Positions 41,950-60,159 of a stretch of 64,000 nt of DNA are shown one piece after another (positions within the stretch are counted from its first letter, which is position 1; each line of letters opens with the position of its first letter). The notes under the pieces were generated by a model. The model saw only the letters and a list, made by a program, of their open reading frames with translations. It had not been told where the DNA came from and did no database searches. This DNA is from Dehalococcoidia bacterium (lineage in GTDB: Bacteria; Chloroflexota; Dehalococcoidia; Lucifugimonadales; Lucifugimonadaceae). Both the position numbers and the translations under genes were made by a program. Location of the stretch: contig JASLLE010000007.1 of assembly GCA_030747175.1 (NCBI GenBank), forward strand, positions 1-64,000, read 5' to 3'.

Positions 41950-42399
41950 ATTGTTCGTCGGAAAGCGTTGCCGTCTACGTAGTGAGCGGTGGATCGAGCG
42001 CAGCCTATACGAACTCTGACCCTTTCTGGCAGCCAATCTGGCGCGTCACATCCGCCGATTGCGCAATCCCTTCTCCCGTCGCGCCCGTCAAACGACCGGA
42101 GAACTGGCGGCTCAATGCCACGGTCACAGGATCGTCTCCCGACAGAGCAGATGCCATACGCCATCTGGTTCGTAGCGCCTCTTGTCACCCTGCTGTGTCA
42201 GACCGATTTTGGCGTTTCCGCCGGTGTCACGGCATTCGGTCTCGCGCGACGGACATACAGACCTCACATTAGTGATCCGGAACGTCATGCGCCGTTCACG
42301 ATTCCCGGCCTAGCTTCATGGTGGCGTTCCGCGCTCTGCGGGTGCGCTGTGACCACCTGGTCGAGCAATGCGTGCCCAACGCTAACTGGAGAAATCGAA
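41950..42399. other. Intergenic region before the sensor kinase
   Basis: 450 bp between the divergent CoA-transferase and histidine kinase genes. The kinase reading frame remains open upstream to 41989, but that stretch has no recognisable domain and a Cys/Trp/Arg-rich composition unlike the protein. No RNA gene, repeat or clear operator was seen. Promoters for both genes are expected here. Confidence 0.4.
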
Positions 42400-44337
42400 T
42401 TGCTGCGTCTCGGGCTCCAGAAACGGATCATGCTGTACGTGGCGATCGGGCTCGTCGGGATGTTCGCCGCCGTGTACTGGCTTGGTACGCGAACGATCGA
42501 GACGGCGACCGAAGCGGCGTTTGAAGAGCGACTCGCCATCGCAGAGACGGTAGCCGGCGCTCTAAGCAACGAGTTCGATCACGCCATCCAAGACGCTGTT
42601 GAAGAGACGGAATCACTGAACGGCGACGTATCTCTGGCGGATGCCACCGAAGCAGTGCAAGCCGCTTATGAACACCTGTCCGAGACCGATAATTTTTCGT
42701 TCTTTGATATCGCTGGCGTGTACATCTCGAGCTATTCAGGCGTGACGGCATTTGCCGGTCCAGAACAGGCAACGAGCCGTGCCGAACGCCTTCTACCGGA
42801 GGTCATCACGGTTGCGGCGGGCGGCAATTCCGGACTGCGGATTTTCTGGGATGACGCCAGTGACCGGGGCGGTCTGGCCACACTATCGATGCCCCTCGTT
42901 TCCCTTGACGGGGCGCGCTGGGGCCGGGTCGAGGTAGATACCGTGGCGGTGTCTTCGAGCGGTCCATTCGTTCCGTATGGACACCTGACGCTTTCTTCCG
43001 GTCCCGATGATCCCCGCCCGGACCTCCCGAGCGTTGCCGAATACCGGCTTGAGGTGATCTCCCCAACCGGCAGGACGCTTCTCACCGCGGGCTCCGACGC
43101 ACCGCTCGGCGAGAAGAGCCTGCACTTCGAGGCGTTGTCCGAGATGCTCTCCCGTAACACGGGTGGAGTGATGGTTCATCGAAATCCGGGCGGAGGGCTG
43201 CGAGACCATGTGATGGCCGCCGTGCCAGTACCTCGTTCCGATCTACTGCTGGTCCTTCTTCAGGACAAAGACGTTGCGCTGGCGCTGGCCACCGATTTCC
43301 GGACGAAGCTGACGCTCTATGCAGGGATTGGGATGATGGCGGCGCTGCTGGTCGCATGGTTCACGACCCGTCACGTTGTGCGCTCCGCAGAAGAGTTAAC
43401 GGTGGCCGCAAAGCGCATGGCGGCCGGGGACCTCGAATCGCCGATACGCACCCACGCCCAGGACGAGATCGGGGAGTTATCAGAGAGTATCGAGTCGATG
43501 CGGCAACAGCTCTCCAGCGCCAGCGCTGAAAGGGAGACCGCCCGGCGGGAGCTTGAGGTGCGTGTAGTGGAACGAACGCGCCAGCTCCGCGAGGCTTTGC
43601 GACAGGCAATCTCGGGCCAGGAGGGGGAGAGGCAACGACTGGCGCGCGATCTGCACGACGAAGTGGCGCAGGAGCTGATCATCCTGGCGCGCGGGATCGA
43701 CGGCGTCCGTCTCCGGGCATCGGATCAAAACGAGGAAGATCTGGCCGAACTGGAGCATATGGAGGAGCTGGCTCGATCGACACTGGACACCGTCCGTCGA
43801 TTTTCCCGGAACCTTCGTCCATCCGTGCTGGATGACCTGGGACTGGTCCCGGCGCTCCGCTGGATCGGCGCCGATACCAGCGATCGGACAGGGGTGGATG
43901 TAAAGGTCACGGAAGACGAAGATGTGCCGGACCTGGACCCTGACACGGCACTCGCATTATTCCGGATCGCACAGGAATCCGTGCACAATATCGAACGGCA
44001 CGCCGAGGCGACGAGCATAAGTATTATCGTCGGCGGCGGAGACGGCCGGGCCACGCTTGCGGTAACGGACAACGGCCGGGGATTTGACGTTTCCGGACGG
44101 CGTGACGAACTTGAACGCGGCGGTCATCTCGGAATCCTGGGGATGACGGAACGCGCTGAACTCGTCGGCGGCAGGCTGGTCATCACCAGCCATGCGGGAC
44201 AGGGGACGACCGTGAAGGCGACGGTGCCACCTGCGCCGGTCTCCGGTGGTGATCCCGTTGCGGTGGATCTGTCTTCAGTCGTCCGAGATATCGACAACCC
44301 CGCGTCGGACGGCGGCCACGACGGCCTCGGTGCGTGA
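42400..44337 (+). CDS. Membrane sensor histidine kinase, NarX/DesK type (HisKA_3)
   Basis: 645 aa from the TTG at 42400, which has GGAG eight bases upstream and begins just before the first membrane helix (MLYVAIGLVGMFAAVYWLG). A 270-residue outer sensor domain follows, of unrecognised family; then a second helix (about 303-322, LTLYAGIGMMAALLVAW), a HAMP linker (about 325-375), a coiled coil, and a HisKA_3 dimerisation domain with the phospho-acceptor H419 in RDLHDEVAQE. The ATPase has VHNIERHAEAT, DNGRGFD and GHLGILGMTERA. Its end overlaps the convergent response regulator by 63 bp. It likely controls the adjacent electron-transfer operon. Confidence 0.9.
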   Translation: MLRLGLQKRIMLYVAIGLVGMFAAVYWLGTRTIETATEAAFEERLAIAETVAGALSNEFDHAIQDAVEETESLNGDVSLADATEAVQAAYEHLSETDNFSFFDIAGVYISSYSGVTAFAGPEQATSRAERLLPEVITVAAGGNSGLRIFWDDASDRGGLATLSMPLVSLDGARWGRVEVDTVAVSSSGPFVPYGHLTLSSGPDDPRPDLPSVAEYRLEVISPTGRTLLTAGSDAPLGEKSLHFEALSEMLSRNTGGVMVHRNPGGGLRDHVMAAVPVPRSDLLLVLLQDKDVALALATDFRTKLTLYAGIGMMAALLVAWFTTRHVVRSAEELTVAAKRMAAGDLESPIRTHAQDEIGELSESIESMRQQLSSASAERETARRELEVRVVERTRQLREALRQAISGQEGERQRLARDLHDEVAQELIILARGIDGVRLRASDQNEEDLAELEHMEELARSTLDTVRRFSRNLRPSVLDDLGLVPALRWIGADTSDRTGVDVKVTEDEDVPDLDPDTALALFRIAQESVHNIERHAEATSISIIVGGGDGRATLAVTDNGRGFDVSGRRDELERGGHLGILGMTERAELVGGRLVITSHAGQGTTVKATVPPAPVSGGDPVAVDLSSVVRDIDNPASDGGHDGLGA

Positions 44338-44952
44338 ACTCACCCTCAACTTTGCGAATATATTCCGCATGTGCGTCTGAACCGTCCGAGGACTCAGACC
44401 CAGTTTGTCCCCGATCAGCGCGTTCGTGAATCCATGTGCCGCCTGGGTTAATACCTCGGTCTCTCGTTCGCTGAGGTATTCGACATCGAGTGACTCACCC
44501 GGAGCAGAGGCTGGCTGGCCTGAAATGCGCGCCATGAGTTTCCTCATCACCGTGGGGTGCAATACAGGCTCTCCAGCGTGGACGGCGCGCACCGCTCGCA
44601 CGACCTCCTCCGCCGGTACGTCCTTCAAGAGGTAACCGGCGGCGCCGGCGTCAACGAACGCGAACACGTACTCATCGTCTTCGTACGCGGTGAGCACGAG
44701 CACATTGATGTCCGGCCAGCGTTTCTTGATCTCCCGGGTTGCCTCGATGCCGTTCATCTCGGGCATCCCGATATCCATGATCGCCACGTCAGGGTGCTCC
44801 CGGCCAGCGATCTCTATCGCTTCTACTCCGGTCGCGGCTTCTCCAACAACTTCGAAATCGATTTCGCGCTCCAGGAGATTACGCGTGCCCTCTCGGACTA
44901 CTGCGTGATCCTCAGCCAGCACGATTCGGATTGTCGACATTTCCTGCGTCAC
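44275..44952 (-). CDS. NarL/FixJ-family response regulator
   Basis: 225 aa. The receiver domain has the acidic pair in VLAEDHAVVREG, phospho-acceptor D60 in IMDIGMPEMNG, Thr in VLTAYED and Lys in LLKDVP. The C-terminal LuxR-type helix-turn-helix has LSERETEVLTQAAHG, GLSPRTVQTHMRNIF. It should be the partner of the kinase that converges on it; the two 3' ends overlap by 63 bp, an unusual layout since such pairs normally share a strand. It diverges from the Tat-ferredoxin/NrfD operon over 231 bp, so the promoter of that operon is a likely target. Start is GTG at 44952 or ATG at 44940. Confidence 0.92.
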   Translation of the reverse strand: MTQEMSTIRIVLAEDHAVVREGTRNLLEREIDFEVVGEAATGVEAIEIAGREHPDVAIMDIGMPEMNGIEATREIKKRWPDINVLVLTAYEDDEYVFAFVDAGAAGYLLKDVPAEEVVRAVRAVHAGEPVLHPTVMRKLMARISGQPASAPGESLDVEYLSERETEVLTQAAHGFTNALIGDKLGLSPRTVQTHMRNIFAKLRVSSRTEAVVAAVRRGVVDISDD

Positions 44953-45183: not shown

Positions 45184-46158
45184 ATGGATAGGGAAGAGAA
45201 CCTGAAAAAGTGGCATGTAAGCCGCCGGCGGTTCCTTCAAATGGCCGGCGCCCTCGGTGCGACCGCTATGGCCGGCGTCGCCCTGCCATCCGCGCTACGC
45301 GACGGGTCCGGCGTGTCTGTAGCCGGCGAAGACCAGCTGGGCCCCGGGGAAGCCGCGGCACAACGTCGATTGCGCAAGTGGATGATGATCATCGACTTGC
45401 GAGCGTGCGACGGTTGCCAGTCTCAGGATTCCCCTCCGAAGTGCTCCGAGGCCTGCATAGCAGGCCACTTTGTGCCGGAGCCGATGCAGTGGATCGAAGT
45501 GTACGAGCACGAATTGAGCTCCGAGGCCGAGCTCCGTCCTGACGAACAGCCTGACCTGCCCATCAACGGCACTCGTTTTATGCCCACCCCCTGCATGCAG
45601 TGCCAGAACCCTCCATGCGTAAACGTCTGTCCCGTGGGAGCGACGTGGTCTACGCCTGAGGGACCGGTGTTGATCGATCAGGACCGGTGCATCGGCTGCC
45701 GCATGTGCATGGCCGCCTGTCCCTACGAACGCCGCTTCTTCACATGGGGCGAGCCGCCGATTCCACCCGAGTCCCTCTTCGTGGAGCGCAGCCCGGAGCA
45801 CCAGGTGCCTCTCAAAAAGGGCGTCGTCGCCAAATGCGACTTCTGCCCGGAAATGGCGCGTTCCGGACGACTCCCCTTCTGCGCCCAGGCCTGTCCCCAG
45901 AACGCCATTTACTACGGCGATCTTGAGGAAGACATAGCCACCAACGGGGACCAGGTCGTCAAGGTGAGTGATTTCCTGGCGGAAAACTCCGCCTTCCGTC
46001 ACAAGGACGAGCTGGGAACTCGGCCACGGGTCTACTACGTCCCCGGCCACGGCGAGCTTGCAGGTCGTAAGCCGACCGATCACGGTCTCCAGGAAGTCAG
46101 CTGGGATTACCAGAGCATCAGGAAAGGATCCAAATCGTGGAAGCGCTCGGGCACGTAA
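45184..46158 (+). CDS. Tat-exported four-cluster ferredoxin subunit (DsrO/TtrB/HmcB-like)
   Basis: 324 aa. A twin-arginine signal, VSRRRFLQMAGALG (residues 12-25), directs it to the outer face of the membrane. The mature part has four Cys groups of the polyferredoxin type: CDGC..KCSEAC, CMQCQNPPCVNVCP, CIGCRMCMAACP and CDFC..FCAQACP, enough for four [4Fe-4S] clusters. Such subunits pass electrons between an NrfD membrane partner and a catalytic or cytochrome protein. Here the NrfD gene overlaps by 22 bp. No molybdopterin catalytic subunit accompanies it, so the closest analogues are DsrO-DsrP-type modules. ATG start with GAGGAG and AAGG upstream. Confidence 0.92.
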   Translation: MDREENLKKWHVSRRRFLQMAGALGATAMAGVALPSALRDGSGVSVAGEDQLGPGEAAAQRRLRKWMMIIDLRACDGCQSQDSPPKCSEACIAGHFVPEPMQWIEVYEHELSSEAELRPDEQPDLPINGTRFMPTPCMQCQNPPCVNVCPVGATWSTPEGPVLIDQDRCIGCRMCMAACPYERRFFTWGEPPIPPESLFVERSPEHQVPLKKGVVAKCDFCPEMARSGRLPFCAQACPQNAIYYGDLEEDIATNGDQVVKVSDFLAENSAFRHKDELGTRPRVYYVPGHGELAGRKPTDHGLQEVSWDYQSIRKGSKSWKRSGT

Positions 46159-47534
46159 GCGCCAGCGAAGCGCGACTCCAAGAGCGGGTAGAAGCCCCTC
46201 TGCTGGGCACCAGCCGTGCGTTCTGGATCTGGGTTGCGGTTCTCCTGGTGGCGATCGCCTGGGGAGGTGTCGCCTACTTCTTGCAGGCGCGTGACGGCCT
46301 GTACGTGACCGGGATGCGCGACCGGATCATGTGGGGCCTCTACATCGCGCTGTTCGTCTTCTTCATCGGGGCGAGCATGGCCGGGACCTTCGTATCGGCG
46401 CTTCTCAGGCTGACCCGGGCCACCTGGCGCGCACCGATAATCCGCGGCGCGGAAATCATGACCGTGGCGGCGTTGATAACGGCCTCACTGTTCGTGCTTT
46501 TCGACATCGGCCGCCCGGACAGGCTGCACCACTTCCTGCTTTATGGCCGCTGGGAATCACCACTGATCTGGGACGTCTACGGCCTCGCCACCTACATGGC
46601 GGGCAGCATGCTCTACCTGTACCTGGCGATGATCCCGGACCTGGCGTTCGTGAGCGATCGGCTCGGGGACGGTTTCGGGACCATCAAACGCGGCTACTAC
46701 CGCCTGCTCTCCATCGCGTGGGCCGATAGCGACGAGCAGCGGGCGACTCTGCATCGCGCCATCGTGGTGATGACGATCGCGATGGTTCCGGTGGCCGTCA
46801 TGATGCACACGGTCACGTCATGGATATTTGGCATGACGCTGCGCGAGCCGTGGAACAGCGCCATGTTCGGCATCTTCTTTGTGGCCGGAGCCATCTATTC
46901 CGGCATCGGGCTGATCGTGATCCTCATGGCGGTGATGCGGCGCGCGTACCGCCTTGAAGAGTTCATCACGGACCGTCACTTCCTCTACCTCGGCTACATG
47001 CTCGCCGCTTTCGCCGTGATCATGGTGTTCTTCAACGTCAGCGAATTCGTGACCCTCGGTTACAAGCTCTCGGCGGACGCCACGTTCAACCTGAACCAGA
47101 TGGTCAGCGGCGACCTTGCCCCGGTGTTCTGGACATACGTGTGGGCGGGACTGGCGCTGCCCATCCTCGTCATCCTCATCCCGTACACCCGTAACCTGAA
47201 GGGCATCCTCGTTGCCGCGATCGCGGCCAACGTAGGAATGTTCCTGGAGCGCTACTTCATCGTCGTTGGCGGGCTTCGTGTTCCTCTCAACCCGTATGAA
47301 CCGGCGACTTACACGCCCTCGTGGGTTGAATGGTCCCTGATGGCCGGCGGCGTCGCCATCTTCCTGTTGCTGGTGACGGTGCTCTTGAAACTCCTGCCGG
47401 TCGTCGCGCTCTGGGAGATGCACGAAGAGGCGTTCGCGAGCGGGCCCGCCACGAGCCCCGGGGGATATGCCGATCCCTCCGAAACGTTCGCGGGCGTTGC
47501 CGATCCTGGGATCGTCGCGGGGGCGAGGTCATGA
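46137..47534 (+). CDS. NrfD/PsrC-family membrane quinone-interacting subunit
   Basis: 465 aa, GTG start at 46137 inside the ferredoxin gene. About ten hydrophobic helices, beginning FWIWVAVLLVAIAWGGVAYF (about 29-48). IALFVFFIGASMAG and DIGRPDRLHHFLLYG are typical NrfD elements; the Asp and His near helix 3 are candidate proton or quinone residues. A long C-terminal tail (about 430-465) is rich in Gly and Pro. NrfD subunits exchange electrons with menaquinol or menaquinone, the quinone made by the operon at the left end of the window. Its stop overlaps the next ATG (ATGA). Confidence 0.92.
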   Translation: MEALGHVSASEARLQERVEAPLLGTSRAFWIWVAVLLVAIAWGGVAYFLQARDGLYVTGMRDRIMWGLYIALFVFFIGASMAGTFVSALLRLTRATWRAPIIRGAEIMTVAALITASLFVLFDIGRPDRLHHFLLYGRWESPLIWDVYGLATYMAGSMLYLYLAMIPDLAFVSDRLGDGFGTIKRGYYRLLSIAWADSDEQRATLHRAIVVMTIAMVPVAVMMHTVTSWIFGMTLREPWNSAMFGIFFVAGAIYSGIGLIVILMAVMRRAYRLEEFITDRHFLYLGYMLAAFAVIMVFFNVSEFVTLGYKLSADATFNLNQMVSGDLAPVFWTYVWAGLALPILVILIPYTRNLKGILVAAIAANVGMFLERYFIVVGGLRVPLNPYEPATYTPSWVEWSLMAGGVAIFLLLVTVLLKLLPVVALWEMHEEAFASGPATSPGGYADPSETFAGVADPGIVAGARS

Positions 47535-48145
47535 CTCGTCCGGGATCCGGGTTCCTCATCGGTATGGTGGTCGCGTCAGGCCTGCTCTGGTCGGGGTTGA
47601 TGACCGCCGCCGCAGATCAGCCAGAGCCGCAGGTGGTTCTCGGTTTTCAGCCGGAGGTTGAAGCCGGGGGAACGATCGCCATATCCGCGTACCTTGTGGA
47701 TCCGGCGGGCAACCCCGTCGTCGGCGAAGAAATCGCCTTCGCAATCGCATCATCTTTCCTGAACGTCGATGGACAGATGGAGATCGGCAGCGCGACCACT
47801 GATCTGGATGGACTCGCCCTGCTGCCGTATGCGCCGCGGATCGAAGGCGATCGCGTAATACGGGCGCAATTCACCGGCAACGATGTGTTCGCGTCCGCCG
47901 AGGCAAGCGAAACGCTGCTCGTAACGCCGGGTCTCCGGCTGCATGAAGAGTTCAGCCCTCTGAGGACCCCCGGCGCCAACATCTGGATGGCCGCGGGCGT
48001 GCTGATCGTCGTGTGGGGTGTCTTCCTGTTCATCTGCGCACTGATCTGGCGGATCGCTTTTCTTGGCGTTAATGGGGGAGTCGGTGAGGGAGTCAGCAGT
48101 GGCACGCCTCACGTCGTGACCGGGGCCGAGGCGTCCGATGACTGA
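47531..48145 (+). CDS. Membrane-anchored Ig-like domain protein in the NrfD operon
   Basis: 204 aa from the ATG at 47531, which overlaps the NrfD stop. A signal peptide ([20 protein letters not shown], about 8-27) is followed by an all-beta region of about 35-140 ([34 protein letters not shown]), which looks like a bacterial Ig-like or carboxypeptidase-regulatory-type fold. A C-terminal helix, [19 protein letters not shown] (about 153-171), holds it in the membrane. There is no Cys or heme motif. It may be a structural subunit that docks the cytochromes. The stop overlaps the next gene by 8 bp. Confidence 0.75.
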
Positions 48146-49073
48146 GAAACGCAAATTCGGACGGTCTGCATTCGTAACGCCTGTCGCCCTCTCCGGCGGG
48201 ATCGCCGCGGTGGCACTGGTACTCATCTTCCAGATCACACTTCGGCCGTGGGCGGGCGCAGACAGTGGTACCGACACGCACCTGAACATGAGCGACCCGA
48301 TGTCCGACTACACCAGGAGTGAGCTGGCGGTCGTCGGCGCTCCGGAGATCGCCCCGATCGGCTGGGTACGGTCCGGGGACGGACAAGAGTCCGATGATAC
48401 GGGCCTGACCGGCTACGTCGCGTACGGCTGTGCAAGCTGTCACGGCCTGGCAGGCGAAGGCACAGCATCCGGGCCGCCGGTTGTCGGCAGTAGCCTTCGC
48501 CGGACCGGCACCCTGTCCCGTAAAGGCCCGGGGGGAATGCCCGTATATGACGACGTGCATCTCGTTGACGCAGACCTGGACGCCATCGCCGCGTACATAA
48601 CGGGCCTCCCGGAGATCCCGGAGGTGGCTGATCCAGTACCCCAACCCGCAGCGACTCCGTTCCCGACCGCGACGCCCCTGCCGACGGCCACGCCGGTCCC
48701 AACTCCAACTCCTCAGCCAACACCCACTCCCCTGCCGCCGGACGCGCCCACACCCACGCCCGGACCCACGTCTACGCCCGCGCCCGCGCCCACACCAGAG
48801 CCCACTCCCGATCCGGGCCTTGTCGCCGCAGCACGTCAGCTTTACATCGACGTCGGCTGCGACCTCTGCCACGGGGTTGGAGCCGAAGGTGGGGACGACG
48901 GACCGGCTATCGAGGACGCGACGGCGAAGGAGATAGAGGACAGCGTCCGAGACCCGCAGCGCGATCCCGACTCCATCTACCCGAAAGGCATGACGGAATA
49001 CCTGCTGACCGACCTGTCCGAGGCCGAACTGATCGACATCATTTTCTACCTGAGGAACCTCCCCGGAGAGTAA
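48138..49073 (+). CDS. Membrane-bound diheme cytochrome c with Pro/Thr linker
   Basis: 311 aa. An N-terminal membrane helix, [20 protein letters not shown] (about 14-33), is not followed by a clear cleavage site, so it is probably an anchor. Heme-binding motif 1 is CASCH (C98, C101, H102), with a downstream GGMPVYDD whose Met could be the sixth ligand. A long, proline-rich linker (about 165-230) of repeated PTPTP units separates it from motif 2, CDLCH (C241, C244, H245), with a Met in PKGMTEY. The two domains are homologous small class I cytochromes. It most likely takes electrons from the ferredoxin/NrfD pair. It ends 2 bp before the next gene. Confidence 0.9.
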
Positions 49074-49075
49074 GC

Positions 49076-50125
49076 ATGAGGCGAGTAGTCAGAGAGAAAT
49101 CAGCTTCCGGACGGACATGGTTGTTCGCCGTCGGTTCCACGTCGGCGCTGATCCTTTTCTTCGCATGGGCATGCACCGGAGAGATCGGGGCCGACGGTTC
49201 AGCCGGACCGATCGGGCCAGCCGGACGACCGGGGCTTACGGGCGATGCCGGCCCACAGGGGGAGTCTGGTCAGCAGGGCGAGACGGGGGCCGACGGGCTT
49301 CCTGGCATAGCCGGACCACCCGGGGCGACGGGAGCAGATGGGATGGACGGGATCCCGGGGGCGCAGGGTCCGGCCGGTGACGCGCCTTCGGACGACATGC
49401 TCGTGGCACTCATAACCGCCGCTCTGGCCGAGTTCGATTTCGCCGGCGGGCCTGTATCCGGCGATTCGGTCCTGGGCGGAAAACTGTTCGACAACTGGCC
49501 GAAGGTCACCGGCGTGACACCGGACGGCGAGCACGGACTGTGGTCCCTGCAATCCACAAACACCCGGACCGGTGAAGCGACATGGCGCTGCAAAGAGTGC
49601 CACGGATGGGACTACAAAGGCGCCGGGGGCGCGTACTCAACCGGGTCTCACTTCACGGGTTTCCTTGGTCTGCTGAAAGCGGGCCGCCTGCTCTCGCAAA
49701 GCCAGATCGTCGAGGTGTTGCACGGCGGTCTTGACGCCCGACATGACTTCACCGAGCTACTGACCGATGAACAGATCACCTCGCTGGCCGCGTTTGTAAA
49801 GACGGAGATCATCAACGAGGCCGAGGTCATCGATTACGACACTCTCACGCCGAGAAACGACTGGGACTTTGACGCAGGGAGATTGCTGTACGCCCGGACC
49901 TGCAGCGCCTGTCACGGAGTCGACGGCAAAACGGTCAACCTGGGCTCCCAGGACAGTCCTGTCTACATCGGCGGACTGGCCAGCGACAACCCGTGGGAAT
50001 TCCTCCACAAGGTCCGCTTCGGGCAACCGGGCACACCGTCTATGCCGGCCGTTGAGGAACGCGGTTGGACTATCGAAGACGCGATCGCGCTGCTCGGCTA
50101 CTCACAGTCGCTTTCGAGTGAATAA
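49076..50125 (+). CDS. Collagen-like diheme cytochrome c, lipoprotein-like (paralog A)
   Basis: 349 aa. A hydrophobic N-terminus ends FFAWACTG, a near-lipobox with Cys33. Directly after it residues 35-103 are 23 uninterrupted Gly-X-Y triplets ([16 protein letters not shown] at the start), the sequence rule of a collagen triple helix. Then come two heme-binding domains: CKECH (C172, C175, H176) and CSACH (C276, C279, H280). Anchored to the membrane by lipid and trimerised by the collagen part, it could hold six hemes on a rod-like stalk. It follows the Pro/Thr-linked cytochrome by 2 bp. A 167-bp gap with a small hairpin (CCCGGA-CCGAT-TCCGGG, 50162-50178) separates it from paralog B. Confidence 0.9.
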
Positions 50126-50292
50126 CTCATGTCTCTTCTACGACATATACATCTTGTAACTCCCGGACCGATTCCGGGGTCGAGGGAAGTTCGATCGTGC
50201 ACGGGCACCGCCCGGCACGAGCAACTGCGCGCCGGCGAACCGGCGCGGAACGGCTGCCGCGGAAATGCCTCCAAGAAAGGAGTGGGTGGTCG

Positions 50293-51387
50293 ATGACCAG
50301 AAAGATTTGGCTTGCAGTCGCAGGAGCGGCTGTACTAGCAGTGATTGGCGTTGCCTGTGCGGGCGATGATGGGGCGGATGGGGTGCCGGGCGCAACCGGT
50401 CCCGCAGGCGCACAGGGCGACACGGGGCCGGCAGGCGCCAAGGGTGATACCGGAGACGCAGGAGCGAAAGGCGATACCGGGGCGACGGGCGCACAGGGTG
50501 AAACCGGCGCCGCAGGAGCCACGGGCGCGGCCGGAGCCACCGGCGCAACGGGCGAGGCCGGAGCCGACGGGGCAACCGGAGCGGCCGGGGCAGACGGCCT
50601 CGACTGGCCGGGGCTTATCCCGGCTGCGTACAACGACGCAGACCCGATCGCCGGCGGCGCGGCTTATGCAAAGTGGTGGAAAACTGACGGAGGTGGGACC
50701 GGCATACAGCCAACCGGACCGGCGGCGGATTTCATGCGTTGCAAGTCGTGCCACGCATGGGACGGCAACGGAAATCGCTCGTCTTACGCCAACCGCACCG
50801 GACAGAGCAGCGGCAAAGCCACGCGTCCAGACGTGTCCTCCGTGGACCTGCGCGCGGCTGCGCTGAGCGAGACCCCGAGCGAGTTGTTTGACCTGATCAT
50901 GCGCCCGGCCGGACGCCCGTTGCTCCAGGAAAGCAACGCGCACCCGAACTACAGCGCAGAAGGAGGACTAACGGACGACCAGGCATGGAACATAGTCAAG
51001 TTCATGAAGGAAGGGTGGATGGAGCCGACCGCGCTCTATGACCTCACCGTCACCGGCGAGCAGATGTCGTGGGACTACTCCACTACTCCGCGTACGCTAA
51101 TCACCCCAACGCTGACCTACTCGAATGTGGGCGCAAAGGGTGACGCCGTCAACGGCGCAGCCGTGTACACGCAGGCTTGTTTCGAGTGCCACGGCGTGGA
51201 TGGGACCGAAATCGACATCGGAGGCCGATCGCTGGGCCAGTTCATTCGGGAGAAGCCGCACGAGGCCTGGTTCAAGGCCAAGTTCGGCGAACCCGGAAAG
51301 ATGGACCCGGCGATGGTTACCGTGCTGAGTGACATGCAAGACCTGTATGCAGCACTCGCAGACGTAACCAACTTCCCGGACCCGTAG
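50293..51387 (+). CDS. Collagen-like diheme cytochrome c, lipoprotein (paralog B)
   Basis: 364 aa from the ATG at 50293, with GGAG upstream. The signal peptide [17 protein letters not shown] ends at Cys22 in a plausible lipobox. Residues 24-104 are 27 uninterrupted Gly-X-Y triplets of low proline and high Ala/Thr/Asp content ([16 protein letters not shown]). Two heme domains follow: CKSCH (C150, C153, H154) and CFECH (C296, C299, H300). The second domain is homologous to that of paralog A (CHGVDG, then FGEPGKMDP against [10 protein letters not shown]). The low Pro content and charged Lys-Gly-Asp triplets are typical of bacterial collagen, which lacks hydroxyproline. It could form homotrimers or mixed trimers with paralog A. 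Confidence 0.9.
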
Positions 51388-53764: not shown

Positions 53765-54622
53765 ATGCTGCGGGGTGTGACGATCAGGCGCTGGCTGGCA
53801 TTTATCGCCCTGGTCGCCCTCGCCGGTGGGGTTGTCGGGTGCGGAAATACACGGGATACGAACGTGATCCTCGCGACGACCACGAGCACCTTCGACACCG
53901 GTCTGCTCGATGTACTGATTCCCGAATTCGAAAAGGAAAGTGGATATAACGTGAAACCGATCGCCGTCGGGACCGGCAAGGCCCTCGCCATGGGCGAGCG
54001 CGGCGAAGCAGATGTCCTGCTGGTCCACGCGCCCGCGGCCGAGGCCGAGTTACTGGCAAGCGGCGCCGCATTAGACCGGAAACCGGTCATGCACAACTTT
54101 TTTGTGCTAGTCGGTCCTCAGGCCGATCCCGCCCGGGTTATGGCCACCTCTTCTGTGGGGAATGCCATGGCGTCCATCGAAAGGGCGGGCTCCGATTTCA
54201 TGTCGAGGGGAGACGATTCAGGCACCCACAAGATGGAGATGAGCCTGTGGGATCTTGCCGGGGTAGCGCCCGGTGGACACTGGTACCAGGAGACGGGCCA
54301 GGGGATGGGCGCAACGCTTCAGATAGCGTCCCAGAAATCAGCGTACACGCTCTCCGACCGCGCCACGTACATCGCGCTGAGCAACGTCCTTGACCTGGGA
54401 ATCGTTTCCGGGTCAGACGGCGACCTGCTGAACACCTATTCCGTTCTTCAGTTGAACGGCGATCGATTCTCCGGTCTGAACGTTGACGGCGGAAGAGCGT
54501 TCGCTGAGTTCCTGCTGTCCATGGAAACCCAGGCGACGATCCGTGACTTTGGTATCGACAGTTACGGCGAACCGTTATTCATCCCCGGGCCCGCTAGCGG
54601 GCCGGGTGAGCCGGCCAGTTAA
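53765..54622 (+). CDS. tupA: Tungstate ABC transporter substrate-binding lipoprotein
   Basis: 285 aa. The signal peptide WLAFIALVALAGGVVGC ends in a lipobox with Cys at about 26. The mature protein starts NVILATTTSTFDTGLLDVL; the TTTS motif binds the oxyanion in the TupA group and separates it from ModA. ADVLLVHAPAAE, RGDDSGTHKMEMSLW and ALSNVLDLGIV follow the TupA pattern. It binds tungstate outside the membrane for uptake. Its stop abuts the tupB ATG without a gap. Confidence 0.94.
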   Translation: MLRGVTIRRWLAFIALVALAGGVVGCGNTRDTNVILATTTSTFDTGLLDVLIPEFEKESGYNVKPIAVGTGKALAMGERGEADVLLVHAPAAEAELLASGAALDRKPVMHNFFVLVGPQADPARVMATSSVGNAMASIERAGSDFMSRGDDSGTHKMEMSLWDLAGVAPGGHWYQETGQGMGATLQIASQKSAYTLSDRATYIALSNVLDLGIVSGSDGDLLNTYSVLQLNGDRFSGLNVDGGRAFAEFLLSMETQATIRDFGIDSYGEPLFIPGPASGPGEPAS

Positions 54623-55321
54623 ATGGAGTTGATCTGGGACGGCATCGTAGAGGCGGTCAGGCTCATCTTTGGCGGCGACAAAGAGGTCGCCGAAATAGTG
54701 TTCCTCACGCTTCGCGTGTCTGGGGCAGCCACCGTCCTCGCCACGCTCATCGGAGTACCGATCGGCGCCGCGCTGGGCGTCTGGCAATTCAGGGGCCGGG
54801 GCGTCTTGATCAGCATCGTCAACACCGGGATGGGGGCGCCGCCGGTCGTCGTGGGACTCGTCGTGATGATCATGCTCTGGCGCACGGGCATCCTGGGCGG
54901 GCTGAACATCCTCTACACACCGTGGGCGATGGTGTTCGCCCAGGCCCTGATCGCTCTGCCAATAGTCATCGGCTTTTCGATGGCGGCGATCGCAGGGATC
55001 GACCCCGCGTTCCGGCAGCAGATGCTGGCGCTTGGAGCGTCGAGATCACAGGCGCTATACCTGATGGTCCTCGAAGCGAGGCTCGCGATCCTGGCCGCTG
55101 TGATGGCCGGATTTGGCGCCGTCATATCGGAAGTTGGCGCCGTGATGATGGTGGGCGGCAACATCAAGGGCGAGACCAGGGTCCTGACCACGGCCACGGT
55201 GCTCGAATCCAACCGCGGCGAGTTCGGTACGGCCATCGCGCTCGGCGCCATACTCCTGACGCTCGCGTTCCTGGTCATAGCCACGTTAACCATCCTCCAA
55301 CAGAGGGCCAGGATCAGATGA
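54623..55321 (+). CDS. tupB: Tungstate ABC transporter permease
   Basis: 232 aa with about five membrane helices. The coupling (EAA) loop is ALGASRSQALYLMVLEARLAI (first 20 residues shown partly), where Gly and Ala contact the ATPase. GAVISEVGAVMMVGGNIKG is a conserved TupB segment. It forms the tungstate channel with TupA and TupC. It begins directly after tupA and overlaps tupC by 4 bp (ATGA at 55318-55321). Confidence 0.93.
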   Translation: MELIWDGIVEAVRLIFGGDKEVAEIVFLTLRVSGAATVLATLIGVPIGAALGVWQFRGRGVLISIVNTGMGAPPVVVGLVVMIMLWRTGILGGLNILYTPWAMVFAQALIALPIVIGFSMAAIAGIDPAFRQQMLALGASRSQALYLMVLEARLAILAAVMAGFGAVISEVGAVMMVGGNIKGETRVLTTATVLESNRGEFGTAIALGAILLTLAFLVIATLTILQQRARIR

Positions 55322-56415
55322 CCGAGTCGCACGCGATCGAACTCATTGACGTCAGAGTCTGGAAGAACCGGCGGCTGATTCTCGACGTGCCGTCGCTGAA
55401 ACTACCCACTCACGAGACGTTTTCGGTGATAGGGCCGAACGGCGCCGGGAAGACAACGCTGCTACGTATCATTTCGTTGCTTGACCGCCCGGGGGAAGGG
55501 CAGGTTCTTCACGCCGGGCAGAGAATCAGCTCGGGCCGCGAAACTCTCCGGCGGCGACGTCGCCTGGCCATGGTGATGCAGCAGCCTGCTCTTCGTAATT
55601 CGAGCGTCTGGGAGAACGTATTGACCGGGCATCGATTCCGGCACACTCCGAAGGACATCGCATCCCGCAAGGTAGGAGAGTGGCTTGAGCGGCTGGGGAT
55701 CAGCCACCTCTCAGATCGAAATGCCCGGCGGCTCTCGGGCGGAGAGGCACAGCGCGTAAACATGGCGCGGGGGCTCGTACTTGAGCCAGATCTTTTGTTG
55801 TTGGACGAGCCGTTCAACGGACTCGATCAGCCAACGAGACTGGCGCTGATGGACGACCTGTGGCGAATATTGCAAGAGATTCGCACATCCACGGTCCTCG
55901 TTACTCATGACCGGGGAGAGGCACAGGCGCTGAGCAGCTCGGTAGCGGTCATGCTCGACGGGAAGGTAGAGCAGATCGGAGACCCGGACCAGGTGTTTAC
56001 CGCGCCCCGCACCGAGGAGATAGCGAGCTTCGTCGGTGTCGAAAACGTGCTCGCCGCAAAGGTGATCGAATCGAACAACGGGTTGACCACGGCGAGCGTC
56101 GGAGAGGGCCTCGTCTCGCTGGCCGGCGAGTACCCCACCGGCGAAGATCTAGTGCTCGGAATCAGCCCGGAGGCGGTGGTGATAGAGGATCCCTCCGATC
56201 TCGGCGCGACAACCAGCGTCCGCAATCGCATTCCCGGGAGCGTGAGCCGTTTGTTTGAGATGGGAGCGCAGGCCCGCGTAGTGGTTGAATGTGGGTTCCC
56301 ACTCGTCAGCCTGGTACCGGGCAGCTCGGTAGTCGATCTGAGGCTGTCGCCGGGCGCTCAAGTCGTGGCGTCGTTCAAGGCCAGCGCCGTGCACGTCATA
56401 CGGAGTGGGCGATAA
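55318..56415 (+). CDS. tupC: Tungstate ABC transporter ATP-binding protein
   Basis: 365 aa from the ATG at 55318. Walker A is VIGPNGAGKTTLL, the Q-loop is VMQQPAL, the ABC signature is ARRLSGGEAQRVN, Walker B is LLLLDEPFNGL, and the switch His lies in VTHDRGE. After the ATPase (about 1-230), a C-terminal domain of about 235-365 resembles the TOBE-like regulatory region of ModC-type ATPases, with VLGISPEAVVIED. That domain may bind oxyanion and inhibit uptake when tungstate is plentiful. TupC in some genera lacks it. Confidence 0.92.
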   Translation: MTESHAIELIDVRVWKNRRLILDVPSLKLPTHETFSVIGPNGAGKTTLLRIISLLDRPGEGQVLHAGQRISSGRETLRRRRRLAMVMQQPALRNSSVWENVLTGHRFRHTPKDIASRKVGEWLERLGISHLSDRNARRLSGGEAQRVNMARGLVLEPDLLLLDEPFNGLDQPTRLALMDDLWRILQEIRTSTVLVTHDRGEAQALSSSVAVMLDGKVEQIGDPDQVFTAPRTEEIASFVGVENVLAAKVIESNNGLTTASVGEGLVSLAGEYPTGEDLVLGISPEAVVIEDPSDLGATTSVRNRIPGSVSRLFEMGAQARVVVECGFPLVSLVPGSSVVDLRLSPGAQVVASFKASAVHVIRSGR

Positions 56416-56525
56416 CCTCATCCAGATGCATTTAGCGAAACCATCAATCCAATAATCGCCCCGGACATGCCCCTTTCACCCCGTTATCTGTCGGTCGATT
56501 GCCCGTCGAACAGAGGAGAAGATCG

Positions 56526-57842
56526 ATGACCGCCCATACTCATCATGATGATCATGTCCACGCTGATGAGGACGACATGATCAGCATCGAGGAGGCCCTT
56601 GAGAGGGTGTTGTCCTACACCTCTGTTCTTCCCGGCGAGAGCCGCCCTTTACTTGAATCGCTGGGGGGCGTTCTCGCAGAAGACATCATCGCCGGGTTCG
56701 ATATTCCGCCCTTGCCCAATTCGGGCATGGACGGGTATGCGGTACATGCCGATGACGTGGCTGGCGCCACCGAAGCGACGCCGATCGAGTTGCCGGTTCT
56801 TGGTGAAGTCGCGGCTGGCGCGGTCCCCTCAGCCCCTCTGGCGCCGGGTGGCGCGATCCGGATCATGACCGGCGCGCCCGTCCCCGCCGGGTCTGGAGCA
56901 GTCGTGCCGTTCGAGGATACGGATGAGATGGAACGGCGGTCGGCGGGAGACGATCTCAAAAAGATAAATGTGCGCAGGGCGCCCAGGCCCGGAGCGAATA
57001 TCAGGCTCGCGGGTGAAGACATCGGCGCCGGGTCAAAGGTCCTGAGCCGGGGCATGACCCTGCGTCCGTGTGACATCGGGCTGGCGGCGTCACTGGGGCT
57101 CACGCACCTGCCCCTTATCAGAAAGCCGGTCGTGGCGATCATCTCGACGGGCGACGAGATCATGGAACCCGGGGAGGAACGCAGGCCCGGGGCAATCTAC
57201 AACTCCAACGCGTACACGATCGCCAGCTTCGTCGCTCGCCACGGGGGCACGCCGCGTATCATCGGTACGGCACGCGACACGGAGGCATCCCTGAATGAAA
57301 TGCTGGATCGCGCGATGGAAGCCGATCTCGTGCTGACGTCGGCCGGCGTATCGCGCGGCGACTACGACGTGGTCAAGGACGTGCTGGCGTCACGCGGACA
57401 CATCGTAAACAGGTCGGTCCGTATCAAGCCGGCGCGGCCGCTGGCGTTCGGGGCGCTGAAAACGGCCGATGGCCGGGATATTCCGCACATCGGCCTGCCC
57501 GGCAACCCTGTCGCCGTCGTGGTGGCGTTCGAGGTTTTCGCGCGGCCCGCCATCCTCGCGATGGCGGGACACACGTCATTGGAGAAGCCCGTCGTGGAGG
57601 CGGTGCTTGAGGATCCGATCAGGAATCCCGATCACCGCAGGGTGTTCGCCCGCGTGGAGGTCTATATCGACCGCGAAACCGGCGACTACCGGGCCAGGCT
57701 CAGTGGCAGCCAGGGATCCGGGGTTCTTACCGCCGCGGCCGCGGCAAACGGACTGGCCATTTGCCCCGAGGACAGTGACGGCCTGAAACCGGGAGATGTG
57801 GCGACCGTACAGATGCTGGACTGGTCCGAGCAGATGCTGTGA
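56526..57842 (+). CDS. moeA: Molybdopterin/tungstopterin molybdenumtransferase MoeA, His-rich N-terminus
   Basis: 438 aa from the ATG at 56526, with GAGGAG at good spacing. The conserved core has PPLPNSGMDGYAVHADD, RIMTGAPVPAGS, ISTGDEI, TSAGVSRGDYDVV and HIGLPGNPVAVVV. It inserts the metal oxyanion into adenylylated pterin. The first 17 residues (HTHHDDHVHADEDD) hold five His and five Asp, a probable metal-binding tail not usual in MoeA. An in-frame ATG at 56577 (MISIEEALERVL) would remove it. Placed after tupABC and facing the AOR operon, it probably serves tungsten cofactor assembly. Confidence 0.92.
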   Translation: MTAHTHHDDHVHADEDDMISIEEALERVLSYTSVLPGESRPLLESLGGVLAEDIIAGFDIPPLPNSGMDGYAVHADDVAGATEATPIELPVLGEVAAGAVPSAPLAPGGAIRIMTGAPVPAGSGAVVPFEDTDEMERRSAGDDLKKINVRRAPRPGANIRLAGEDIGAGSKVLSRGMTLRPCDIGLAASLGLTHLPLIRKPVVAIISTGDEIMEPGEERRPGAIYNSNAYTIASFVARHGGTPRIIGTARDTEASLNEMLDRAMEADLVLTSAGVSRGDYDVVKDVLASRGHIVNRSVRIKPARPLAFGALKTADGRDIPHIGLPGNPVAVVVAFEVFARPAILAMAGHTSLEKPVVEAVLEDPIRNPDHRRVFARVEVYIDRETGDYRARLSGSQGSGVLTAAAAANGLAICPEDSDGLKPGDVATVQMLDWSEQML

Positions 57843-57922: not shown

Positions 57923-59818
57923 TTACGCGACCGGCGTCGGAAGTTCCTCCGCCGCCCACGAGATGCCGAGTTCGGCGAGTTTGACCTCCGTCGGCACGCC
58001 CGTCTGAGGGTCCCAACCCATCATGGTGTACATGTTGTGGATGGCCTTATCCATCTCGTCTTTGTTTATGCCGCCGCCTGACAGGCCGCCGGTCTCGGTC
58101 CCGTTAAAGAACCGCTTCGGCAACTCATCCCGGGTGGCGTCGATGCCTTCCCGCAGGTTGAATATGCGGCCCAGCGTGGCGATGCGTTCGCCCAGTTGCT
58201 GCGCCTCATGGCCGGTGTAGGACCACCCTGTCGCCGCCGAGATGATCTCGATAAGCTGCGAGAACCTCCACGGGACGAAGTTGCAGGCGATCACCGAGTC
58301 CTTGAACAGGTTGTTCGTGTGTACAGCCCTCTGGTTGGCGACCTTGTCCAGGCCGAGATCGTCCGCCGCCAACGGAACCGTCGCCCCCATGCCTTTCATG
58401 TGCTCAAACCCGGCTCCCCACTGGGTCGCCGCGGTGTCGTGCAAGCCGGCGCAGTGGTCAGCGCCCACGGCCTCCATTGAGTAAATGATGCCAAGTCCCT
58501 GCTTCACCCTCGGGTCGTGCATCGGGAGTTCGAGACCCTTCACCTGCATGGCGAACTCTTCGGCGCCCTGCCCGATGATCTCCGCTGCTTTCCTCGTGCC
58601 CTCGGCAAGGGTTGCGCCGATACCTTCACGTTTCGCGATCAGTTCGATCGTCTGTATCAGGGCTTCGGCGTTCCCAAACCTGAGGTCAATGCCTCCCGTG
58701 TCTTCGAGGGTCAGGATCTCGTTCTCAAAGCACTCCATCCCGAACGCTATGGTGACGCCGAGGGATATGGAGTCCAGTGAGTACAGGTTGGCGAGCTCAT
58801 TGGCCTTGATGACGGCGGCAAGGTCATCCACGCCACAGGTGGAGCCAAGCGAGCCAAGAGCTTCGTACTCCGGGCCGCCGTTGCGCTTGTCGACGTTCCA
58901 GGGTTCGGCGATCTCCACCGTCTTCTTGCACCTGATGGCGCAAGCGGCGCAGCCTTCCATCCCGGTTCCGTAGACCTCCATCGTGGTGGTCGCTGTGATC
59001 GCCTCGGTGTTCGGGAAGTCGTTCTTCCCGAAGTTGTGAGAGGGCTGGTTGCCCACCGCATTACCGGAGATCATCATCGAGTGCTCGCCCGTGCCCACCT
59101 CGCTCATGGACGGGTTAAACAACGAGACTTCCATGAAGCCCTGGTTCATGGTCAGGGTCAGTTCACGGATCTTCGCCGGGTCAGCGACCTTCGGGTTCGT
59201 GCGACCACGAGCAGCGATCGCCTTGAGGTTCTTGGATCCCATCACGGCGCCGAGTCCGCCGCGTCCCGCGGCGTCTTTGAGGTCGTTGATCACACACGCG
59301 TACCGGACCTGGTTCTCGCCGCCGGCGCCGATGGCCGCGGTGCGGATGTTCCTTATGCCGGTCTCTTCGGTGATCGTGTCATGCGTGTCCATGACCGTCT
59401 TGCCCCAGAGATGCCCGGCGTCCTTTATCTCCACACCGTCGTTCGTCATCAAGAGGTAGACGGGAGAATCGGCTTTGCCTTCGAAGATGATGGCGTCGTA
59501 ACCGGTCTTCTTGATCTCCATCGGAACGAATCCGCCGACCTCGGACTTGGCGAAGCCGCCAGTCAGCGGAGATTTCGCTCCGATACAGGCACGCGTTGCG
59601 CCGGGCATCGCGAGGCCGCCCATCGGGCCAAGGGCGTAAATGAGTTTGTTCTCGGGCGAGAGCGCGTCGATGCCCTGTGGGACTTCCTTCAGGAGGAAGT
59701 AGGAGACGAATCCGGCGCCACCCAGGTACATCCGGTAGAACTCTTCGTCGGGCTCGTCCACCGTTATCTTTCGTTCTGTGAGGTCAACCCTCAGGATCTT
59801 TCCGGCAACTCCGAGCAA
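57923..59818 (-). CDS. Tungsten aldehyde:ferredoxin oxidoreductase (AOR family, copy 1)
   Basis: 631 aa. AOR N-terminal domain: GKILRVDLTERKITVDEP, YLGGAGFVSYFLLKE, GATRACIGAKSPLTGGF, and AAGRGGLGAVMGSKNLKAI, which binds the tungstopterin. The [4Fe-4S] cluster ligands are C290, C293, C297 (CAACAIRC) and C512 (VIACNF). It oxidises an aldehyde to a carboxylic acid and reduces ferredoxin, or the reverse. The start is TTG at 59818 with GGAGA before it. It is the last gene of the leftward aor-moaD-aor operon. The specific substrate is unknown; the subfamily is not one of the sequenced archaeal FOR or GAPOR types as far as I can judge. Confidence 0.92.
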   Translation of the reverse strand: MLGVAGKILRVDLTERKITVDEPDEEFYRMYLGGAGFVSYFLLKEVPQGIDALSPENKLIYALGPMGGLAMPGATRACIGAKSPLTGGFAKSEVGGFVPMEIKKTGYDAIIFEGKADSPVYLLMTNDGVEIKDAGHLWGKTVMDTHDTITEETGIRNIRTAAIGAGGENQVRYACVINDLKDAAGRGGLGAVMGSKNLKAIAARGRTNPKVADPAKIRELTLTMNQGFMEVSLFNPSMSEVGTGEHSMMISGNAVGNQPSHNFGKNDFPNTEAITATTTMEVYGTGMEGCAACAIRCKKTVEIAEPWNVDKRNGGPEYEALGSLGSTCGVDDLAAVIKANELANLYSLDSISLGVTIAFGMECFENEILTLEDTGGIDLRFGNAEALIQTIELIAKREGIGATLAEGTRKAAEIIGQGAEEFAMQVKGLELPMHDPRVKQGLGIIYSMEAVGADHCAGLHDTAATQWGAGFEHMKGMGATVPLAADDLGLDKVANQRAVHTNNLFKDSVIACNFVPWRFSQLIEIISAATGWSYTGHEAQQLGERIATLGRIFNLREGIDATRDELPKRFFNGTETGGLSGGGINKDEMDKAIHNMYTMMGWDPQTGVPTEVKLAELGISWAAEELPTPVA

Positions 59819-59851
59819 TGCATTCTCCTTAGTTCAATGTCGTCGTGTTTG

Positions 59852-60085
59852 TCATCCACCTGCGATCGGGGAAAAGACCAGCAGGTCATCCCCGTCCGAA
59901 ACTTCCGCGTCTTTATAAACCAGTTGGCCCCCGATACTGGCGTTCCACTGGGCTTCCGAATCAATGCCGATCAGGGCGAGCGCGTCGGCGACCGTTGAGC
60001 CATCCGGCAGGGTCACCTCAACACTTTTGCTGTCGCCCTCCAGATGGCGACGGAGCGGGCCTATGGGTCGAATTGTTATTTTCAT
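59852..60085 (-). CDS. MoaD/ThiS-like sulfur carrier between two AOR genes
   Basis: 77 aa beta-grasp protein: MKITIRPIGPLRRHLEGDS, VADALALIGID, GDDLLVFSPIAGG. It ends in the free diglycine required for thiocarboxylation. Such carriers give the dithiolene sulfur of pterin cofactors. Its place between two AOR genes (33 and 74 bp gaps) suggests a MoaD dedicated to tungstopterin made for these enzymes, or a small bound subunit. moaA, moaC and moaE are not in the window. Confidence 0.9.
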   Translation of the reverse strand: MKITIRPIGPLRRHLEGDSKSVEVTLPDGSTVADALALIGIDSEAQWNASIGGQLVYKDAEVSDGDDLLVFSPIAGG

Positions 60086-60159
60086 ATGACCGCTACTGTA
60101 AATCAGAGTGGTCGTATGCGAAACCTCGGGCAGGCCATACCCGGTTTAGTTACCCCCGA

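Follow-up and report, generated by a model that had tools for sequence, protein, structure and literature searches.

The last two genes of an FeS/NrfD operon from a marine Dehalococcoidia bacterium, which we call A and B, encode lipoprotein-like diheme cytochromes c whose heads stand on uninterrupted collagen Gly-X-Y stalks. Related bacteria mount cytochromes of the mineral-respiring OmcA/MtrC family on such stalks too, and these layouts suggest how electrons might leave through a cell's protein coat. Dehalococcoidia thus use the collagen stalk under no fewer than two kinds of cytochrome head. The parts are all of known kinds; the novelty lies in how they are combined, in the reuse of the arrangement with a second type of head and in the envelope around it, and here bacterial collagen would have a role beyond the adhesion and spore-coat uses usually described for it. 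In this paper, we have tried to ask what these stalks are for, starting from one window (by which we mean the whole 64,000-nucleotide stretch of DNA that was analyzed) and working outward to the relatives of the two proteins and of their operon.

Two cytochromes and their operon

Gene A (49076..50125, + strand, 349 aa) and gene B (50293..51387, + strand, 364 aa) are recognized from their reading frames and Pfam matches, B's length and residue numbers being counted from the ATG at 50293, 5' of which stands a Shine-Dalgarno-like aaggag. Both proteins begin with an export signal that ends in Cys (Cys33 in A and Cys22 in B); A's lipobox is weak (FAWAC, with Trp at -2) and B's reads GVAC, against good ones such as LLLAGC in relatives, and the source genome encodes LspA. 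The stalks follow, with 23 triplets in A (residues 35-103; 49178..49384, +) and 27 in B (residues 24-104; 50362..50604, +), whereas 20,000 shuffles of each protein never gave a run of every-third glycine longer than 8. Pfam Collagen (PF01391) scores 38 bits in A and 53 bits in B against a cut-off of 27.2, and with such long uninterrupted Gly-X-Y runs, both count as collagen-like proteins. Cytochrome_CBB3 (PF13442) and Cytochrom_C (PF00034) are above their Pfam cut-offs in each, and both are cytochromes c of class I type, with ligand conservation checked in A. On re-reading, an initial annotation proved exactly right on the frames, their coordinates, the triplet counts and the presence of two CxxCH motifs in each protein.

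The heme motifs of A are CKECH at residue 172 (49589..49603, +) and CSACH at residue 276 (49901..49915, +); those of B, read from the sequence, are CKSCH at residue 150 (50740..50754, +) and CFECH at residue 296 (51178..51192, +). All of the heme Cys and His residues are invariant in the 37 aligned rows of A-type heads, and so, in 37 of 37 aligned heads, are a His for heme 1 and a Met for heme 2—His223 and Met323 in A, the likely distal ligands—which makes bis-His ligation likely for heme 1 of A and His/Met ligation likely for heme 2. A's head is 44-50% identical to homologues from other genomes and B's is 58% identical to its homologue in genome G235; judged by such conservation, the two frames are conserved coding sequence. 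(A Pro/Ala-rich antisense ORF at 50127-50633 on the - strand opposes B's collagen repeat; it mirrors the repeat and is unlikely to be a gene.)

What precedes A and B is a same-strand run of genes that overlap or abut as far as A, with B following after 167 bases. It opens with an FeS subunit, a DsrO/NrfC-type 4Fe-4S ferredoxin with a TAT-like signal (45184..46158, +; Fer4_11, 65 bits), and continues with an NrfD-type integral membrane quinone-binding subunit (46137..47534, +; PF03916, 147 bits), a membrane protein with a C-terminal TM segment and a weak bacterial Ig-like (Big) domain (47531..48145, +; Big_1/Big_3_5 below cut-off) and a diheme cytochrome c with an N-terminal anchor (48138..49073, +; Cytochrome_CBB3, 55.6 bits), which we call cytPT for the 57-residue Pro/Thr-rich linker that separates its two hemes. 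No molybdopterin catalytic subunit is found in the run from FeS to B. Upstream lie a sensor histidine kinase (41989..44337, +; HAMP and HisKA_3 by Pfam), possibly a regulator, and a convergent response regulator read from the sequence as NarL-like by eye (44275..44952, -); homologues of the kinase (E 1e-106 to 1e-118) occur near A or the operon at three other loci (L078, L087 and L091). Downstream, at 53765-56415, 56499-57842 and 57923-61995 of the window, are tungstate, molybdopterin-type and AOR genes: a TupA-like tungstate transporter, what looks by eye like a molybdopterin molybdotransferase gene, and two or more genes for aldehyde ferredoxin oxidoreductase. We considered a functional tie between these and the operon and dropped it, an AOR homologue being present at only 3 of 79 loci. 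Elsewhere, the source genome has, by eye from gene sizes and order, an NrfD cluster like that of alternative complex III (ACIII) and a Psr-like one that includes a large subunit of catalytic type, together with two COX1 genes (heme-copper oxidases) and cytochrome c assembly proteins. With those clusters and oxidases present, the A/B operon would be an additional route.

Relatives of the heads and distribution of the stalk

Since a query with the whole of B returned mainly other collagen proteins, we searched with the heads without their stalks. A's head belongs to a broad, apparently unnamed family: the search gave at least 567 relatives, of which the 80 best-matching fall at 79 loci. Among those best 80 of at least 567, the hosts are mostly Chloroflexota; the others include Rokubacteria, Methylomirabilota, Deltaproteobacteria, Thermus, Acidimicrobiia, Gemmatimonadota and Nitrospirota, along with two MAGs labelled Thaumarchaeota or Nitrososphaerota. 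A scan of viral contigs found no relative of the A head. In many Anaerolineae (L100, L101, L105, L109, L110 and others), the A head occurs in four-heme proteins of ~500 aa, apparently by duplication, with Pro/Thr-rich lipoprotein spacers. B is certain only in the source genome and G235, and A stands without B at nearly all loci; with stalks of unequal length as well, an obligate A/B heterotrimer is unlikely.

The initial annotation proposed looking for conservation of the neighboring NrfD operon across related genomes, and it is conserved. The order FeS-NrfD-Big-cytPT-A is kept in G018, G235 and G238 and at loci L081, L090, L114 and L124, and the operon with a stalked A is found also at L087 and L089; a Big-protein homologue lies between NrfD and the cytochrome in most related operons. 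The operon with a stalked A is also carried by Ca. Lucifugimonas marina JH1073 (CP046147.1; locus L093, which is G018), a SAR202 strain that is in culture and completely sequenced, and so the idea is directly testable. A-type cytochromes are scattered within the GTDB family, where 6 of 76 genomes encode one, all six with a collagen stalk. The FeS-NrfD core is wider than A: FeS matches with E <= 1e-80 occur in 34 of 393 genomes of the class, and the FeS genes there are mostly followed by NrfD and the Big protein, usually without A.

Between anchor and head, the relatives of A differ. That part is collagen in 24 of 80 rows and Pro/Thr-rich, Pro/Ala-rich, short or absent in the rest, and the triplet count, for whose conservation the initial annotation proposed to look, runs from 7 to 28. 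The expectation that homologues should keep the repeat holds for the close relatives in Dehalococcoidia, nearly all of which are collagen-stalked, but not further out, where most distant homologues have no Gly-X-Y repeat. In nearly all of the stalked bacterial proteins, a Cys stands one to two residues ahead of the first Gly. Of 63 complete Chloroflexota rows, 23 have collagen (as does one archaeal MAG) and 51 a loose lipobox; none of the 11 diderm rows has either (Fisher p 0.014 for collagen and 3e-7 for the lipobox), with a still looser lipobox pattern matching two Rokubacteria as well. These rows are phylogenetically non-independent, and the diderm/monoderm contrast is confounded by phylogeny. 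Lipoprotein-like collagen-stalked cytochromes, then, are real and conserved, and they occur in monoderm lineages. A tree of 75 heads, weakly supported at several forks and with a long branch leading to the window's own row, shows four changes of the collagen state. The stalk appears in one group of 20 Dehalococcoidia rows (the window's among them), with the stalk of L075 shrunk to three triplets, in three rows from Anaerolineales and relatives and in the archaeal MAG. This last, labelled Thaumarchaeota, encodes an A-type diheme cytochrome with 28 collagen triplets (L108:9584-10642, +) in which an N-terminal TM segment replaces the lipobox; a binning error is possible.

The stalk is not confined to A-type heads. 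At least eight Dehalococcoidia genomes have collagen-stalked decaheme cytochromes of the OmcA/MtrC family, with 6-24 triplets: 24 at L067, 17 and 19 at L203, 18 at each of L207 and L212, 15 at L206, 15 and 14 at L208, 9 at L204 and 6 at each of L213 and L214. The three that were scored reach 430, 472 and 438 bits with TIGR03507 (cut-off 209.3). Other decahemes of the class have a plain membrane anchor instead, and the predicted stalk is thus common on them without being obligatory. The decaheme at L067 (4397-7417, -) has a C-terminal cupin-domain extension and adjoins an A-type cytochrome. Hexaheme cytochromes with 9-triplet collagen stalks are encoded at L168:1333-2379 and L169:1297-2379, in two single-contig genomes of the class of 1.7-1.8 Mb.

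In the wider order, the same start of Cys plus collagen is found on many heads, including SBP_bac_5 (substrate-binding), Cache-domain, PhoX-like phosphatase and unnamed families. Three non-redox examples (L008, L026 and L031) yield a Pfam set of SBP_bac_5, PhoX and Cache, one protein each, which protein bears which head having been read by eye. The source genome's own third collagen lipoprotein (L001:1147-1932, -, contig C154) has no heme and ends in a small domain that sister genomes share (L017, L020 and L025). Across the clade, the stalk is, by all of these layouts, a general surface spacer of lipoproteins, the cytochromes included. The initial annotation had called the stalked layout a plausible way to carry electrons; since the same spacer stands on non-redox heads too, the stalk marks surface display without by itself implying electron export.

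The envelope and a possible route for electrons

What, then, would such a spacer have to cross? Cultured SAR202 bacteria are monoderm, encode no peptidoglycan synthesis and have an S-layer-like layer (PMC10444878). Loss of the peptidoglycan genes goes back to the ancestor of those Dehalococcoidia orders among which the marine radiation falls; Tepidiforma has kept peptidoglycan, with a 40 nm periplasm below its S-layer (PMC10284905). With such relatives, A and B more probably have an S-layer to cross than a thick wall. The earlier proposal of a route through a monoderm cell wall therefore keeps its monoderm half, and "through the cell wall" is best read as the space beneath the S-layer. The collagen triple helix rises 0.286 nm per residue, at which the stalks, if triple-helical, would measure 19.7 nm in A and 23.2 nm in B. 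The stability of a B helix is uncertain, with little proline (three residues) and few basic residues (two, against 12 acidic ones); Thr fills 10 of the 27 Y positions, and there are two KGD motifs. A low-Pro bacterial collagen, Scl2.28, melts at 35.6 C (PMC8968730), and for B, melting near 36 C would suffice in a cool ocean.

The explanation that we prefer, and to which we give an even chance, is that the operon is a quinol:cytochrome c module and that the stalked A and B are outward carriers whose heads stand near the S-layer, away from the membrane. The sequence itself gives the layout, the operon, the conservation, the lipobox pattern, the ligand candidates and the decaheme stalks; we infer the triple helix, the trimer, the direction of flow, the acceptor and the position in the envelope. 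Menaquinol would be oxidized at NrfD, and its electrons would go by way of the FeS protein to cytPT, which is anchored in the membrane and carries its second heme domain on the Pro/Thr arm, and on to the heads of A and B. Collagen rods, anchored by lipid and probably homotrimeric, would keep those heads ~20-23 nm away from the membrane and within or close to the S-layer, in a cell with no outer membrane and, like its cultured relatives, presumably no peptidoglycan. From the heads, the electrons would pass to an acceptor at or outside the coat, with B joining A as an outer carrier in a few genomes and reverse flow from an external donor possible. The weak step is the relay: a stalk of ~20 nm is far past electron tunnelling range, so that something must move, and the relay that we draw is hypothetical. 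The spacing between the hemes of cytPT does rise with the number of triplets in A (Pearson 0.96, n = 8 operons; 0.98 on n = 5 collapsed groups of relatives; 0.86 without L081). Some control lengths also correlate (0.89 for the cytPT tail and 0.73 for the Big protein), and the match of arm to stalk is therefore a lead only, which shared ancestry could explain.

Physiology, for its part, does not call for an extracellular acceptor: Lucifugimonas and other SAR202 isolates are described as aerobic (PMC10444878), and the source genome has no PF22113 (OmcA/MtrC) match. Might A and B, then, be ordinary lipoprotein cytochromes of an aerobic chain, which serve a heme-copper oxidase with electrons drawn from the NrfD module, with collagen a mere spacer? 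Aerobic relatives, two COX1 genes, the many non-redox collagen-stalked lipoproteins of the order and a head that resembles the diheme subunits CcoP and QcrC all fit this, and still we think it rather unlikely: a rigid 20 nm rod would keep the head distant from a membrane oxidase, an ACIII-like cluster is already in the genome and no oxidase gene lies within or adjoining the operon.

NrfD-type modules can run in either direction, as general knowledge has it, and the likely bis-His and His/Met hemes would make a low- and high-potential pair usable both ways. Extracellular oxidation of an external donor, or a surface enzyme, could in principle feed the heads and, through NrfD, menaquinone. No oxidoreductase head is fused to the operon's proteins or conserved beside the operon, the nearby AOR genes are not conserved neighbors (3 of 79 loci), and we regard this inward flow as improbable. 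Slightly more improbable to us is that the stalk serves mainly as an adhesin or as a tether to the S-layer, its lattice or other surfaces, the hemes being there for stress protection or sensing. Known bacterial collagens are often adhesins (PMC8968730; PMC10987987), and a stalked Cache-domain protein occurs in the same order; the linkage to FeS/NrfD and the strict conservation of both hemes and of their ligand candidates argue otherwise.

We also offer, as a doubtful but possible reading, that a collagen-based electron conduit evolved in the peptidoglycan-free, S-layered Chloroflexota. Were that true, lipid-anchored triple helices would raise cytochromes with two to ten hemes, as trimers, to S-layer height, and the NrfD quinol module would feed them through cytPT, whose Pro/Thr arm would match the stalk in reach.

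Known systems compared

The initial annotation knew of no described family with this layout. In the open literature that we searched, in which subscription journals were mostly uncovered, no paper joins collagen with multiheme or decaheme cytochromes and none relevant treats collagen-like lipoproteins in Chloroflexi; the layout is absent there, although homologues do exist in other genomes. The nearest functional parallel is PgcA of Geobacter, a lipoprotein with PTx repeats between its hemes and a role in reducing Fe(III) oxides (PMC5732950). PgcA of Geobacter sulfurreducens has a lipoprotein signal where A and B have a lipoprotein-like one, shares with them repetitive proline-type spacers and few c-type hemes, and acts, as we propose for them, outside the cell membrane. 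Compared by layout only, A and B are not of PgcA type: its PTx/APAx spacer lies between hemes, has no Gly-X-Y and belongs to a diderm host, whereas theirs is Gly-X-Y and N-terminal to both hemes. Within the A-head family, PT/AP spacers like those of PgcA replace collagen in some members. The surface cytochromes of the OmcA/MtrC family (TIGR03507), several of which share the collagen stalk in Dehalococcoidia, are decahemes; A and B, class I-type cytochromes with two hemes each and no TIGR03507 or PF22113 match, stand outside that family.

Among quinone modules, the operon's NrfD is nearest by sequence to ActC of alternative complex III (the closest solved chains being its ActC/NrfD, E 2e-48). 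Of the ActA-ActF set, the operon has only this ActC-like NrfD and, as a separate protein, the FeS subunit, with neither the pentaheme ActA nor an ActB catalytic-type subunit. The FeS and NrfD pair also resembles DsrO/DsrP among the DsrMKJOP/Qrc proteins (DsrO, DsrP, QrcC and QrcD), but it scores under the NCBIfam cut-offs (155 of 200 bits for DsrO and 130 of 350 for DsrP), and no DsrMK or triheme DsrJ is in the operon or adjoining it.

Bacterial collagens such as Scl, Lcl and BclA share with A and B the uninterrupted Gly-X-Y rod and globular head; they have no heme and use other anchors, and the NCBIfam Scl and Lcl matches to A and B are confined to the repeat and far under cut-off. ANME archaea have multiheme cytochromes with S-layer domains, which are proposed to carry electrons through a protein S-layer (PMC9012536). 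This is the task that we propose for A and B, although the ANME proteins are giant, archaeal, bear an S-layer domain and have no collagen. Surface multiheme cytochromes in Gram-positive thermophiles are one described answer to the crossing of an S-layer in cells without an outer membrane. Beside these and the giant S-layer-fused cytochromes of ANME, the collagen rod would be a different solution.
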